This document shows, piece after piece, positions 2 to 42,086 of a stretch of DNA of 64,000 nt. Numbering within the stretch: position 1 is the first letter of the stretch; the number at the start of each line of letters is the position of its first letter. The notes under the pieces were generated by a model. The model searched no databases, was not told where the DNA came from, and was given only the letters and a program-made list of their open reading frames with translations. The stretch spans positions 1-64,000 of the forward strand of contig JAQYVV010000010.1 of NCBI GenBank assembly GCA_030145275.1, read 5' to 3'. A program made the position numbers and the translations under genes. The stretch is from Desulfurivibrionaceae bacterium. Lineage in GTDB: Bacteria > Desulfobacterota > Desulfobulbia > Desulfobulbales > VMSU01.

Positions 2-2527
2 CACCAGGCGCGAATTTGACACTCCGCAACCGTTGCCAGTTTGGCAACTTCGTTTGGCCGTGGCGCAATGACCAACCATTGGATCGATATCCGCAACTCG
101 GATGTTGTTCTGATAATGGGCGCAAACCCCGCTGAAAATCACCCTATCTCTTTCCAGTATGTCCTTGAAGCCAAGGAGCACGGCGCCAAGATTCTGAGCG
201 TCGACCCCCGCTTTACCCGCACCAGCACCAAAGCGGATATATTTGCACCGCTTCGCAGCGGCACCGACATCGCTTTTCTCGGCGGGATGATCAACTACAT
301 CCTGAGCAACGATCTCCAGCACAAAGAATACATGCAGCTGCACACCAATGCGACCTTTCTGGTCGATCCCCTTTTCCAGATGCCGGGTGAACTGGACGGT
401 CTGTTCTCCGGTTACGATGCCAAAAAACGCAGTTACGACAAAGCGACTTGGGCTTTCCAGCGTGACGCCAACGGCGTGCCAAAGAGTGACCCAGACATGC
501 AGGACCCAAACTGCGTCCTACAGCTACTCAAAAAGCACTACTCACGCTACAGCCCAGATATGGTTTCAGATATCACCGGTACTCCGCCCGACAAACTCGC
601 GGAAATCTATCAAAATTACGGCTCTTCCGGTAAACCCGGCAAGGCGGGAACCATTATGTACGCCATGGGCTGGACCCAGCATACCGTCGGCACCCAAAAC
701 ATCAGGACCATGGCCATTATTCAGCTTTTATTGGGCAACATCGGCATAGCCGGCGGCGGCGTCAATGCGCTGCGCGGAGAATCGAACGTGCAAGGCTCAA
801 CCGACCATTGTCTGCTGTTCCACATTCTCCCCGGCTACCTGCCGACACCGAAAGCAGGCCTGAAAGATCTGGCCACTTACATAGAGAAGACCACACCAAC
901 CACCAATGATCCCCAAAGCGCCAACTGGTGGGGCAACCGCAGCAAATACATCACCTCCCTGCTTCGTGCCCTCTTCGACACCAACCTGACCGCCGAGGAT
1001 GAATTCGGCTACCAGCTCCTGCCAAAACTAGATGCTGGTCAGAACGCCTCCTGGCTCATGATCTTTGATCGGATGTTCCGTGATCAGGTCAAAGGTTTCT
1101 TCGCCTGGGGTCAAAACCCGGCCTGCAGCGGCAGCAACGCCAACAAGGTGCGCCAAGCCATGTCTAAACTCGACTGGATGGTGGCTGTTAACCTGTTTGA
1201 CAACGAAACCGCTTCATTCTGGAAAGGCCCGGGGATGGACCCGGCCAATATCGACACAGAGGTCTTCTTCCTGCCGGTGGCAGCCTCCTTTGAAAAGGAA
1301 GGAAGTATCACCAATTCGGGACGCTGGGCCCAATGGCGCTACCAGGCGGTGGAACCTCTCGGCAACAGTCGCCATGACTCAGAACTGATAAACGAACTAC
1401 AGCACCGGGTGCGGCAGCGCTATGCCGCTGAAAACGGCGCCTTCCCCGACCCTATACTGAAATTGAGCTGGAATTACGGTTTCAAACTCCTGGATGGCAA
1501 AGTCCGTAAAATTGATATCCATGCGGTAGCCAAAGAGATCAACGGCTACTTTCTTGTCGACAAGGAGATTAAAGGTAAGCTCTACAAAAAAGGCGATCTG
1601 GTCCCCTCCTTTGCCTTTTTGCAAGACGATGGTTCGACCTCGTCAGGCAACTGGCTCTATTGCCAAAGCTACAATAGCTCCGGCAATAACATGGCCCGCC
1701 GTGGCCAAAAAGATCCAAGCGGAGTTGGTCTCTACCCCGAATGGTCCTGGTGCTGGCCGGTCAACCGCCGCATTTTATACAACCGCGCCTCGGTCAATGC
1801 CGACGGAGTCCCTTGGAACAAGGAAAAACCAGTCATCTATTGGAACGGCTCCAAATGGAAGGGGGATGTTCCCGACGGTGGCTGGAAACCTCTGTCACAA
1901 GCCGGCACCAGAAAATCCTTCATCATGCTGCCCGACGGAGTCGCCTCAATTTTTAGCGCTGGCATGAAGGAAGGACCTTTCCCTGAGCACTATGAACCGC
2001 TGGAGAGCCCCATCGAGAAGAACTCTCTCTCCGGCACCAAAAACAATCCGGCCATAAAGCTCTTTTACGAAGGAGACGAAAAACTGGAGGTAGATGTCTA
2101 TTACTCCTCCGACAACCGTTATCCATTTGTAGGCACCACCTACCGGGTCACCGAACACTGGCAGACCGGGATCATGACCAGAAACACTCCGTGGCTGCTG
2201 GAAATGCAGCCGAAAATGTTCGTTGAGATCAGCGTGGAACTGGCCAAAGACCAGGGTATCGGTCAAGGTGAGTTGCTCAAAGTCAGCTCGGGAAGAGGCA
2301 GTGTTGAAGCTGTAGCCGTCGTTACCAGGCGCTTTAGACCCTTTAAGGTCCAAGGGAAAACCGTCCATGAGGTGGGCCTGCCTTGGTGCTACGGCTGGAA
2401 CACCCCAAATTGCGGGGACAGCGCCAATCTGTTAACCCCAACCATCGGCGATGCCAATACCATGATCCCAGAAACAAAGGCCTTCATGGTTAATGTCGAA
2501 AAAATCAGTGGGGGGAGAAAAACATGA
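2..2527 (+). CDS. fdnG: Formate dehydrogenase-N/O major (alpha) subunit, selenocysteine-containing, 5'-truncated by window edge
   Basis: In-frame codons upstream of the listed ORF read HQAR-I-U(TGA 17-19)-HSATVASLATSFGRGAMTNHW, matching the FdnG/FdoG active-site Sec motif (..QARV-U-HGPTVASLAPTFGRGAMTNHW..). The listed start at 41 is an internal TTG. Confidence 0.95.
17..50 (+). promoter_or_regulatory. UGA(Sec) codon plus bacterial SECIS hairpin
   Basis: TGA at 17-19. Perfect 7-bp stem GTTGCCA(32-38)/TGGCAAC(42-48) with loop GTT (39-41). GU of the loop lies +20/+21 from UGA, as in E. coli fdhF. Confidence 0.88.
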
Positions 2528-3306
2528 AACGAAAAGCCTTTTTGATCGACACCACCCGCTGCACCGCCTGCCGCAGCTGTCAGGTCGCCTGTAAACAGTG
2601 GAACAAACTCGAAGCTGAAGCAACGGTCAACCGCGGCAGCTATGAAAATCCCCCGGATCTAACCCCGCAGCTCTACAATCAGATTCATTTTATCGAAAAA
2701 GAGCATGGGGATGACTTTAATGATTTTCGCTGGCTATTCATCAACCGGCGCTGCATGCATTGCGCTGATGCCGGCTGCATGAAGGTCTGTCCAGCAGAAG
2801 GGGCTCTCTATCGTACCAAGGAGGGGATGGTCGTCTATGACCAGGATAAATGCATCGGCTGTCACTACTGCGTCAATGCCTGTCCTTTTGATGTGCCGCG
2901 CTTCGACACCCAGCAAAAAGTTACCAAGTGCCACGGCTGTATGGACCGGGTACAAAACGGCCTGTTACCAGCCTGTGTTAAGGCCTGCCCCACAAATACC
3001 CTTCAATTCGGTGATCGCGATCAGCTAATCGCCGAGGCCAAGGCGGAAGGCAAAAAACTTTACGGTGAAAACGATCTTGGCGGACTCGGGGTTCTCTATG
3101 TTCTTGATGATAAACCAGGCACATATAAACTGCCGGAAAACCCTGCCATTCCTGCTTCAATCCTGTTCTGGAAAGATGTCGTAAAACCGCTGGGAATTTT
3201 CGGCTTCTGGGGCGTCGTCGGCGCAGCAGCCCTGCACTATGTGACCGTTGGCCCAAAGAAGATAGAAGACTCATCTGAGCAGCCAGACAATGGAGGTGAA
3301 TCATGA
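2524..3306 (+). CDS. fdnH: Formate dehydrogenase iron-sulfur (beta) subunit
   Basis: Multiple 4Fe-4S CxxCxxCxxxC clusters (CTACRSCQVACKQW, CIGCHYCVNACPFDVPRF), C-terminal TM helix, overlaps fdnG stop. Confidence 0.93.
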   Translation: MKRKAFLIDTTRCTACRSCQVACKQWNKLEAEATVNRGSYENPPDLTPQLYNQIHFIEKEHGDDFNDFRWLFINRRCMHCADAGCMKVCPAEGALYRTKEGMVVYDQDKCIGCHYCVNACPFDVPRFDTQQKVTKCHGCMDRVQNGLLPACVKACPTNTLQFGDRDQLIAEAKAEGKKLYGENDLGGLGVLYVLDDKPGTYKLPENPAIPASILFWKDVVKPLGIFGFWGVVGAAALHYVTVGPKKIEDSSEQPDNGGES

Positions 3307-17315: not shown

Positions 17316-19829
17316 TTAATCCTGTCTCTCGTCTCGCAGATAACCAATCGGTTTCTGCTGTAAAATCGAAACTGAGGCACCCAGCCCCACAGCGATAACC
17401 AGCACAAGCGTTGCGGCAATCATAATTATCGTGCTAGCAAATAGGGGCTGGTAGGCAATATTAAACACCTCCCGGCAGATAATCCAACTTCCAAAATGGG
17501 AAATGACAGTTGCAAGCGAGGCACTGAAAAACGCCACAATCAGGTTTTCATAGGTGAAAACCTTTACAACAAAAGAGCCTTTGGCACCAAGGATCTTAAA
17601 ATAGACGGCTTCACGAATCCTGCTTAGGCGAGTAGCAAAGATTGAGCTGATAATGATCAGTAACCCGGCAACAATTGAAAACGAGGTGAAAAACTGAATA
17701 ATGGATGACATCTTGTGCATGATTCCGCCCAGAATTTCAACTGTCGAACCTATGTCAATGACGCTGATATTAGGCAACCTGCCCGCAAGTGTGTTCTGGA
17801 TGGCGGTCAATTGGTACCGATCTATTTTGACGGCACTGAAAATGGTCTGGGGTGCGTCTTTAAGTGATTCCTCTTGAAAGACAAAATAGAAAAAGGGCCG
17901 CACCCTTGATTCCGTTCTGGTTCGCATGCTTGTCACCCGCGCTTTAAGGCCAATACCCTGCACCTTGAAAACAAGCAGATCGCCAATCTTGATATTACCG
18001 TTTTGGGCCACTGTATCCAGTACCGACACGGGCACCTCCCCACTATTGTACAACTCCTCTATCCTACTGCCAAAAAGAGTCTTCCCCTCTGACATCTTCT
18101 CGTCTTTGAGAAGATAGTCTCGATAGGTAAGGTTGAATTCACGGGTCATGTTGTCCCGGTTTTTCGCTCTCTCCTCACCCCTTTTTATGGGCTCATTGTT
18201 AATTGAGGCCAGCCGGGCCCTGACAATAGGGAAATACTCCGCCTCTATGCCGAGAATATCGGCAAACTCTTTTTTCTGTTCAGTCTGGATATCCAGGAAA
18301 TAGGCATTGGGCAGATCGGCGGGATAGGAGTCTATAAAAGTGGCCCGCAGATTCTGATCAATGAGATATATGGAAAAAATCACTGCCAGTGAAGCACTAA
18401 GGGTGATGATAATGGACCGGGTGGCATTGTTTGGCCTGAATAACCCTCGAAAGGCCTGGCGGAGTATTAGAGACCTGGGCCTGTTTTTTTTCATAACCAA
18501 AGACAGACCCTGGGTAACCAGCGCTGCCAAACCAATGAGGCAGCAGAGTCCCAGCATGAAATAAAGACCGATCTTGACATCTTCAAGCTGCCAGATAACC
18601 AGACCGATAAAGAATAAAACAATGATCGAAATGGCGCTGTAGTGCAGGAGTCCTCTTGGTGCTCTGCCAATCTCTTTACGAAAAATAAAGGCAGGCTTGA
18701 GGTTCCTGATACGTTGCAGGGGAAGAAAAGAAAAGAGGCCCACCACAATTGTTCCGAGGAGGAGCCCTTCAAAAACAACCCCCCATGAGATAGTTAGGGT
18801 GACATTGGCTGGCAAAATATCGGCAAAAAGTGTGGGGAAATACAACTGCAACAGATAGCTTAAGATTAATCCAAGGAATGTTCCGGCTGTGCCGAGCAGC
18901 ATGACCATGGCCATAAAGTGGCTGGTGATGAACCGGTTTGTTGCACCCACTGACTTCATGATAGCAATTGTATAATCACTTTCACGGAGCACAGCGTACA
19001 AAGATGTCTGGATGCCGATACCGGCCAGCACCAGGGTGAACAGGCCGATAAGGTTGAGGAAAAAAAGAAAATTCTCAAAAAAACGTTTTATCCGTGAGTT
19101 GCCAGTTTGGAAGGTTTTAACATTTTCCTGGGGTGTAACTGCTTGGGCAGAAAATTCTTCGGCAAGCCGGTCAACAAGGGCGGGGTCATGTACTTTAAGC
19201 AGATAGTCGAACTGTATCCTGCTGCCTTTTTTGATAAGATTAAGCTTTTCTAAGTCGTCAGCTGCGATAAAAATTCTCGGCCCAAAGGAAAAAAATGAAA
19301 CCGGTCGGTCCGGCTCCAGGGTGACAACATCGGCAATGGTAAGCGAGGTTGAGCCTATTTGCAAGGTGTCACCGATGCCGGCCTGCAGACGATCCAAAAG
19401 CACCTGATCGACTATAATTGAGCCAACACTAAGAACTTCCGAGAATTCCCGGCCCGAGAGAAGCTCCACCTTGCCATAAAAAGGGTACCCTTTTTCAACC
19501 ACTTTCAAGTCGCTGAGAATGGATTTTTCCGTCAGGGGATTCCTGGCCATACTGTAAAATTCATTGACCAGGGCGCCTTGGACAATTCCTTCTTGTTCAT
19601 GGCTATGAATGGCTTTGACTAACGGTCCGGAAAAGGGATAATGGGAGTGAATAGTAATGTCAGCCCCATGTAGTTGTCTGGCATCCTGGAGCATTGAGTT
19701 ACGAACACTGCTGCTGAATCCCCCAAGCGAAGTCAAGATGAGCAGGGACAAGGCAACGCAGAGTATAAAAATAATAGCCTGTTTGCGGGAAGCGTCTATT
19801 TGCCTGAAGATGAAATTGAGCTGCAGCAT
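17316..19829 (-). CDS. ABC transporter permease, FtsX/MacB type (YbbP-like)
   Basis: 837 aa, multiple TM helices with duplicated FtsX domains; adjacent ATPase gene. Confidence 0.87.
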   Translation of the reverse strand: MLQLNFIFRQIDASRKQAIIFILCVALSLLILTSLGGFSSSVRNSMLQDARQLHGADITIHSHYPFSGPLVKAIHSHEQEGIVQGALVNEFYSMARNPLTEKSILSDLKVVEKGYPFYGKVELLSGREFSEVLSVGSIIVDQVLLDRLQAGIGDTLQIGSTSLTIADVVTLEPDRPVSFFSFGPRIFIAADDLEKLNLIKKGSRIQFDYLLKVHDPALVDRLAEEFSAQAVTPQENVKTFQTGNSRIKRFFENFLFFLNLIGLFTLVLAGIGIQTSLYAVLRESDYTIAIMKSVGATNRFITSHFMAMVMLLGTAGTFLGLILSYLLQLYFPTLFADILPANVTLTISWGVVFEGLLLGTIVVGLFSFLPLQRIRNLKPAFIFRKEIGRAPRGLLHYSAISIIVLFFIGLVIWQLEDVKIGLYFMLGLCCLIGLAALVTQGLSLVMKKNRPRSLILRQAFRGLFRPNNATRSIIITLSASLAVIFSIYLIDQNLRATFIDSYPADLPNAYFLDIQTEQKKEFADILGIEAEYFPIVRARLASINNEPIKRGEERAKNRDNMTREFNLTYRDYLLKDEKMSEGKTLFGSRIEELYNSGEVPVSVLDTVAQNGNIKIGDLLVFKVQGIGLKARVTSMRTRTESRVRPFFYFVFQEESLKDAPQTIFSAVKIDRYQLTAIQNTLAGRLPNISVIDIGSTVEILGGIMHKMSSIIQFFTSFSIVAGLLIIISSIFATRLSRIREAVYFKILGAKGSFVVKVFTYENLIVAFFSASLATVISHFGSWIICREVFNIAYQPLFASTIIMIAATLVLVIAVGLGASVSILQQKPIGYLRDERQD

Positions 19830-40413: not shown

Positions 40414-40698
40414 ATGGGACAAAAAGCACAGGCTCGCCACATACTGGTGGCTACAGAAGAAAAATGCAACCAGCTAAAAGAGAAGATAGAAGGCGGAGAA
40501 GATTTTGCTGAAATCGCAAAGGTACACTCAATCTGTCCATCGTCTAAAGATGGTGGCGCCCTTGGTGAATTTGGCCCAGGAGCCATGGTAGAGGAATTCG
40601 ACAAGGTTGTCTTTAGCGCCGAAGTTAATTCCGTACAGGGACCAGTTAAAACTGATTTTGGCTATCATCTTCTGGAAGTGACAAGCCGCACTGAGTAA
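40414..40698 (+). CDS. ppiC: Parvulin-type peptidyl-prolyl isomerase (PpiC)
   Basis: ARHILV...FAEIAKVHSICPSSKDGGALGEFGPGAMVEEFDKVVFSAEVN...TDFGYHLLEV. Confidence 0.92.
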   Translation: MGQKAQARHILVATEEKCNQLKEKIEGGEDFAEIAKVHSICPSSKDGGALGEFGPGAMVEEFDKVVFSAEVNSVQGPVKTDFGYHLLEVTSRTE

Positions 40699-40775: not shown

Positions 40776-40907
40776 CTACAGCAGGGCAAACAACAGCCAT
40801 ACCAACAAGCTGAAACCTACAATTACATATACTACTGGTCTTAAAACATTCCAAAGATTTGTTAACTCCTCCGGAGTTAATACTTTTGGCTGTTTTCAGT
40901 TAGCCAT
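40776..40907 (-). CDS. Candidate 43-aa small membrane selenoprotein (UGA at codon 4)
   Basis: MAN-U(TGA, 40896-40898)-KQPKVLTPEELTNLWNVLRPVVYVIVGFSLLVWLLFALL*; SD GAGGTG upstream; hairpin TTAACTCC-GGA-GGAGTTAA 23 nt after UGA; Sec usage shown by fdnG. Confidence 0.68.
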
Positions 40908-40925
40908 TGTGTCCACCTCTTTTAA

Positions 40926-42086
40926 TTACGTTTTCTTCTTGTCTGCTTTCGTCTTACTTGCCAGTTGACCACATGCAGCCGATATATCTGCGCCCCGGCT
41001 GTTTCTCACCAGAGCTATCAGGCCGGCCTCTCTCAGTACCTCTTGAAAAGCTATAACACATTCTTGCTCAGAGCATTTGTAAGGCAAACCATCACACTCA
41101 TTAAATGGCATCAGATTAATCCTGCAGGAGATCCCTGTTAATTTTTCTGCCAACTGCTTTGCATCATCAAGTGAATCATTCACCCCTTTAATAAGAATAT
41201 ATTCGAACAGGATGACCTTTTTCTTGGCCAAGGGGTATGATCGGCAGGCATTAAGCAGCTGCGCCACAGAATACTTCTGGTTAATTGGCATCAGCATACT
41301 GCGAGTCATATCATCTGCAGCATGGAGAGAAACTGCAATATTGACCCGTATATCCCGACCCAAATCCTCTATTCTTGGTACAATTCCACAGGTTGAAACC
41401 GTGACCCGTCGCTCGGTAAATTCAAAACCCCGCTCATCCATCAAAATAGTCAAGGCGGTTATAAGATGTTCATAATTGGCCAGGGGCTCGCCCATTCCCA
41501 TGAATACCAGATTATTAATAATCTCTCTGGCTGGCACACTGGTCATTCCCGATTGAGCCATGTGTTCCATGACCGCCATAACCTGATTGACCATCTCGGA
41601 GGGGCGCAGGTTTCTTTCAAATCCCATGAGCCCAGTTAGACAAAACTTGCAGCCCATGGCACAGCCAACCTGGGATGAGATGCACAGGGTGTTCCGCCCC
41701 TCTGCCGGAATCATAACACTTTCAATCACCGCACCATCATCAAGGACAAAACCATATTTAACCGTGCCATCTTCCGAGCGTTCTACCTGTGCGAGCTCAA
41801 GAGAGCTTAAATATGAGGCTGAGGCAAGTTTGTCCCGATACTCTTTTTTAAGCAGACCGCCAAGCCCCGAAAAATCCGAACTTCCGAGCTTGTATAGCCA
41901 AGAAAACAGATGAGCAGCCCTTGAAGACGGAATATCCAGACTCTGCAGATATTCGGATAACTGCAAACGAGTGAGACCTCGCAGATCTCTCTTTTCCCTG
42001 GCCCTATTCACGCTCCTCATATCCCCTATCCGCTGGCAGCCCACCCTTTCTGGCCGCCGCCACCGCAAGAGTGTCACATATTTCAT
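40926..42086 (-). CDS. rlmN: 23S rRNA (adenine2503-C2)-methyltransferase RlmN (true start probably internal, MRSVNRAREKRD)
   Basis: Radical SAM CxxxCxxC (GCKFCLTGLMGFERNL), NLVFMGMGEPLANYEHL. Confidence 0.95.
   Translation of the reverse strand: MKYVTLLRWRRPERVGCQRIGDMRSVNRAREKRDLRGLTRLQLSEYLQSLDIPSSRAAHLFSWLYKLGSSDFSGLGGLLKKEYRDKLASASYLSSLELAQVERSEDGTVKYGFVLDDGAVIESVMIPAEGRNTLCISSQVGCAMGCKFCLTGLMGFERNLRPSEMVNQVMAVMEHMAQSGMTSVPAREIINNLVFMGMGEPLANYEHLITALTILMDERGFEFTERRVTVSTCGIVPRIEDLGRDIRVNIAVSLHAADDMTRSMLMPINQKYSVAQLLNACRSYPLAKKKVILFEYILIKGVNDSLDDAKQLAEKLTGISCRINLMPFNECDGLPYKCSEQECVIAFQEVLREAGLIALVRNSRGADISAACGQLASKTKADKKKT

Follow-up and report, generated by a model that had tools for sequence, protein, structure and literature searches.

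A short open reading frame (ORF) downstream of rlmN in a Desulfurivibrionaceae contig very probably encodes a selenoprotein of 43 amino acids, in which an in-frame UGA would be decoded as selenocysteine (Sec), although Sec insertion itself is deduced here from sequence comparison. This reading was put forward in a first-pass annotation of the window (the whole 64,000-nucleotide stretch analyzed here), and it is now supported by sequence evidence: the UGA occurs in all 16 members of the family, the codons behind it show a coding pattern, the hairpin covaries, and the machinery for Sec decoding is present in nearly all member genomes.

An ORF with UGA at codon 4 follows rlmN

The ORF is located on the minus strand at 40776..40907. 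Its frame reads ATG-GCT-AAC-TGA, with the ATG at 40907-40905 and the proposed Sec codon at 40896..40898, after which 39 sense codons lead to a TAG stop (40778-40776), so that the product would be MAN-U-KQPKVLTPEELTNLWNVLRPVVYVIVGFSLLVWLLFALL. A Shine-Dalgarno-like GAGGTG (40914..40919, minus strand) precedes the ATG by 6 nt, and purine-rich AGG/GAG tracts are present there in most members of the family. Upstream on the same strand, across a gap of 18 bp, lies the gene for the 23S rRNA methyltransferase RlmN (40926..42086; Pfam Radical_SAM and RlmN_N), and the two are probably cotranscribed. The other neighbor, encoding a PpiC-type peptidyl-prolyl isomerase (40414..40698, plus strand), is convergent. 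The position and sequence of the ORF had been given correctly in the first-pass annotation, which had also noted that no usable start codon follows the TGA in frame; indeed, the first ATG, GTG, or TTG codons after it are three TTG codons, all within the membrane span of the protein.

The UGA is retained in every member of the family

When 58 genomes, comprising the window's own and relatives, were searched with the protein, clear homologues of the ORF appeared. A profile search then covered 258 genomes of the class, including the window's own (Desulfobulbales, former delta-proteobacteria), of which 16 carry a member, the window included, with E values from 2.6e-23 to 7.7e-17. The members are spread over five families of Desulfobulbales and form a sharply bounded set, the next match in the class reaching only E = 1e-3. 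A phylum-wide search of 395 genomes returned three members, all already in the class set. Six loci are from named relatives and came from a search of genome contigs with a 5-row subset of the alignment; they belong to Desulfurivibrio sp. SURF_16, Candidatus Desulfobia pelagia, a Desulfobia metagenome-assembled genome (MAG), a Desulfobulbaceae MAG, and two deltaproteobacterial MAGs, names from which the assignment to Desulfobulbales was deduced.

Two loci, L083 (G245:C183) and L085 (G186:C313), encode near-identical proteins (MGUKQ[K/I]STLSPDEI...), and their genomes are assigned to two different families of the order. Genome G186 shows 8% contamination, and its copy is close to that of G245. 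Since its occurrence there may reflect contamination or gene transfer, we count the family as present in at least 15 species.

The member proteins are 41 to 43 amino acids long, and each frame contains exactly one in-frame stop codon, which is TGA in 16/16 cases and falls at codon 3 (three members) or codon 4; in L034, an extra ATG ahead makes it codon 5 when counted from the first ATG. Neither Cys, another sense codon, nor another stop was found at this site among the 16 members. Sense codons or other stops at codon 4 of the homologues had been named beforehand as a finding that would speak against a selenoprotein, and the homologues uniformly carry TGA. The alternation of UGA with a Cys codon (UGC) that had been expected was not found: no convincing Cys homologue, which would be supportive and is not required, was detected by profile search in the 258 class or 395 phylum genomes. 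A weak match was observed in a single genome at L046 1501-1572 (G185:C182:15795-15866; E = 0.0024), reading DGN-C-KQKEQVREGEGIKLWFLIKPVN with TGC at the site of the family's TGA. This fragment has neither the membrane helix nor a matching hairpin, and it is possibly a decayed Cys relic or a chance match among 258 genomes. Apart from it, the family appears to be Sec-only.

The codons after the UGA evolve as a protein

Counted from the conserved Trp to the end of the frame, members differ pairwise by 0.32, 0.22, and 0.59 at codon positions 1, 2, and 3, respectively, and residues M1, U4, W19, P24, I29, and W37 are invariant among 13 aligned members. These data indicated that the region downstream of the UGA diverges like coding sequence. 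The part upstream of it comprises just M-[G/A/S]-(x) and is too short for a separate coding test.

The same data bear on whether the UGA could be a true stop, in which case a 3-codon leader would be followed by a hairpin that binds SelB and thereby senses Sec status. A SECIS-like element upstream of E. coli selAB provides a model for such an arrangement, and the closeness of the UGA to the start codon, the retention of the Shine-Dalgarno-like sequence and the hairpin, and the location of the ORF behind rlmN in the window would all suit it. However, it leaves unexplained why the 37 to 39 codons behind the UGA show conservation at the protein level, with an excess of third-position changes, invariant Trp, Pro, and Ile residues, a membrane helix, and ordinary stops at the end. 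Furthermore, the genes downstream vary by lineage and often lie on the opposite strand, which leaves such a leader no constant target. We therefore regard a leader of this kind as very unlikely and favor translation through the UGA.

A covarying bSECIS-type hairpin follows the UGA

Downstream of the UGA, the minus strand contains a perfect 8-bp hairpin, TTAACTCC-GGA-GGAGTTAA (40862..40880), which on its own has a folding energy of -7.8 kcal/mol. For a 68-nt segment beginning at the ATG, the folding energy is -16.5 kcal/mol (z = -3.1), and none of 200 shuffled sequences was equally stable. Published rules for bacterial SECIS (bSECIS) elements specify a loop of 3 to 9 nt, a G in the first two loop positions, a spacing of 16 to 37 nt, and a minimum free energy of at most -7.5 kcal/mol (PMC13188914). 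With its 3-nt loop GGA, which starts with G and is located 23 nt after the UGA, and its stability of -7.8 kcal/mol, the window hairpin satisfies these rules, and the agreement with general bSECIS rules noted in the first-pass annotation is thus borne out.

That annotation had also called for a check on conservation of the hairpin, and we found it kept in 15 of the 16 members, in a gap-free alignment with 94.5% of cells paired. Double-sided changes occur in 3 of 7 stem pairs among these 15 members: U-A, G-C, and C-G alternate at the base, U-A becomes A-U in the window, and, near the loop, U-A becomes C-G, with U-G as an intermediate state. The covariation score is 0.302 versus 0.139 ± 0.024 for shuffled alignments, none of 500 shuffles reaching 0.302, and since related sequences may beat such shuffles without any structure, weight falls on controls in which the structure was slid along the alignment (covariation of 0.068 or lower) and on the codon evidence. 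With respect to the latter, the Pro codon within the hairpin is CCG in 15/15 members; the conserved Pro that precedes the membrane span is encoded by CCA, CCC, CCT, and CCG in 3, 3, 7, and 2 members, respectively. A change of the protein from SPDE to SPGG leaves the stem paired. Conservation of the UGA together with the hairpin across species indicates that this feature is beyond chance.

A consensus scan marks the hairpin as terminator-like on the plus strand, raising the question of whether it merely terminates transcription of the convergent ppiC, with the ORF being incidental. This is extremely improbable, the least probable of the explanations weighed here: genomes in which the neighboring genes are unrelated have the same hairpin at the same distance from the UGA, and the tail, CTTTTGGCTG, is weak.

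The member that departs from the others is L044/L084 (L044 1501-1626, minus strand; G025:C70, near 18207-18332). It keeps MAU and the membrane helix; unlike in its congeners, the SPDE hairpin segment is replaced by unrelated sequence, with no comparable hairpin detected and a fold of the region no better than that of shuffled sequences. This member may use a different SECIS element or may be decaying.

Nearly all genomes with the ORF carry the Sec decoding machinery

The gene selA was found in 15 of the 16 member genomes; selB was likewise found in 15, i.e., all except the window's MAG, and in 5/5 genomes of the same family that were tested. The window's genome contains selA (G000:C22:80493-81872, 621 bits) and tRNA-Sec (G000:C44:150431-150524, 72 bits), and selB was not detected in this MAG, which is 84% complete. 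No tRNA-Sec above the threshold was found in three MAGs of a single genus, all of them fragmented. Thus, the presence of Sec genes, a check proposed at the outset, holds for selA and tRNA-Sec in the window's genome and in nearly all members, but not for selB in the window's own incomplete MAG. In one of the same-family genomes, selB (G004:C194:859-2705) is in two adjacent pieces covering profile positions 1-117 and 141-579, possibly because of a frameshift or an assembly error. The window itself begins with fdnG (2..2662, plus strand; its 5′ end is cut by the window), and, as stated in the first-pass annotation, this gene is of the Sec type: the frame reads through a UGA as HQARI-U-HSATVASLATSFGRGAMTNHW (starting HSATVAS...), which corresponds to the Sec motif known from formate dehydrogenase N.

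These results argue against recoding of the UGA by other means, such as near-cognate readthrough that inserts Trp or a different residue. The product would have an identical length in that case, and Sec is assigned to the site by deduction. Against this stand the Sec machinery and a hairpin that both fits the bSECIS rules and covaries; moreover, UGA is also the ordinary terminal stop of the same ORF in L032/L072, and no member has UGG in place of the internal UGA. There is, in our estimate, only a slight chance that a residue other than Sec is inserted.

The product is predicted to be a membrane-tethered selenol

The amphipathic N-terminal part and single transmembrane helix that had been noticed in the protein were both recovered. 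Residues 12 to 24 (40836..40874, minus strand) comprise the start of the helix (TPEE) and an amphipathic stretch with the invariant W19 and P24, and residues 25 to 43 (40779..40835, minus strand) form the membrane-spanning helix, with a mean Kyte-Doolittle value of 2.75. AlphaFold2, run on the alignment, predicted one helix from residue 12 to 42, with pLDDT of 93 to 95 at residues 21 to 40; residues 1 to 11 are less certain and nonhelical. The S/T-P-D/E-E motif at the start of the helix is a probable N-cap. Basic residues lie nearly all N-terminal of the membrane span, and by the positive-inside rule this charge pattern suggests a cytoplasmic, Sec-bearing N terminus in the style of tail-anchored proteins.

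In the mechanism we propose, ribosomes would start at the ATG and soon meet the UGA, which is codon 4, or codon 3 in three members; there, Sec-tRNA-Sec would be delivered by SelB attached to the hairpin that immediately follows. The product of 41 to 43 amino acids would then bear Sec on a short flexible N terminus, followed by a capped amphipathic turn (S/T-P-D/E-E) and a single membrane helix at the C terminus. Cys is absent from the window protein and not conserved at any position in the family, some members having one within the membrane span. Since there is no conserved Cys, a conserved internal selenenylsulfide is unlikely, and the tethered selenol would most likely pair with a partner or a second copy, through a mixed Se-S or Se-Se bond, or bind a metal. 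A role of the selenol in redox chemistry or metal handling is thus the most likely one; we give redox by itself about an even chance, and confidence in any specific partner is low. No gene partner shared across families of the order emerged from a comparison of 16 neighborhoods, and rlmN is outside the family's common neighborhood. In four genomes of one genus, rlmN also occurs 2 to 3 kb away on the other strand, an observation too weak to interpret.

Residue 2, after the initiator Met, is Gly, Ala, or Ser in every member. Given the specificity of methionine aminopeptidase, Met should therefore be removed, leaving a mature N terminus of [G/A/S]-x-Sec or [G/A]-Sec. More speculatively, and with a rather small likelihood, this Sec-only membrane microprotein could have its mature N terminus itself as the active center, either chelating Ni or Cu through the free amino end and the selenolate, for which amino-terminal His/Cys motifs offer a likeness, or acting as a selenol relay.

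Comparison with known selenoproteins

Eight members were scanned against Pfam and NCBIfam without a significant match; the family profile had no significant match in the PDB, PHROGs likewise gave no significant match, and no plasmid match was found. The first-pass annotation had not recognized the protein family, and the lack of Pfam, NCBIfam, and PDB matches agrees with this. A 2026 review catalogues 119 prokaryotic selenoprotein families (PMC13188914), and none of its 119 entries, compared by description, resembles the 43-aa family. Judged against this catalogue and the NCBIfam models, the computational evidence most likely points to a selenoprotein family that is both new and unusual in form.

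Gene callers skip ORFs that are so short and have such an early stop, and the usual method for finding selenoproteins starts from Cys homologues, on which surveys mostly rely for UGA frames. A Sec-only family of 41 to 43 amino acids with UGA at codon 3 or 4 escapes both nets, so selenoproteomes may be undercounted in such a class. The family would also offer a natural case of Sec insertion nearly at the start codon, and, being a membrane selenoprotein of minimal size with no Cys version found, it bears on why cells use Sec.

The families catalogued in prokaryotes share the decoding mechanism proposed here, and several of them are uncharacterized, some being from Thermodesulfobacteriota (PMC13188914). 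A deep-Sep survey, which included Desulfobulbia genomes, reported nine families as new, each of which has Cys homologues (PMC12013277), whereas none was found for the 43-aa family. Like FdnG and other bacterial bSECIS selenoproteins, the family has an in-frame UGA, a hairpin just downstream that is within the rules, and selA, selB, and tRNA-Sec in nearly all of its genomes; unlike the FdnG type, to which it is unrelated in sequence, it has one membrane helix, its UGA at codon 3 or 4, and no recognized enzyme domain. Among eukaryotic proteins, SELENOK and SELENOS are small, span the membrane once, and have a single Sec on a flexible part exposed to the cytosol. This residue lies close to the C terminus, and the SECIS element of both is in the 3′ untranslated region. 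The resemblance is thus one of analogy only, with no sequence relation, and the bacterial family would place its Sec near the N terminus.
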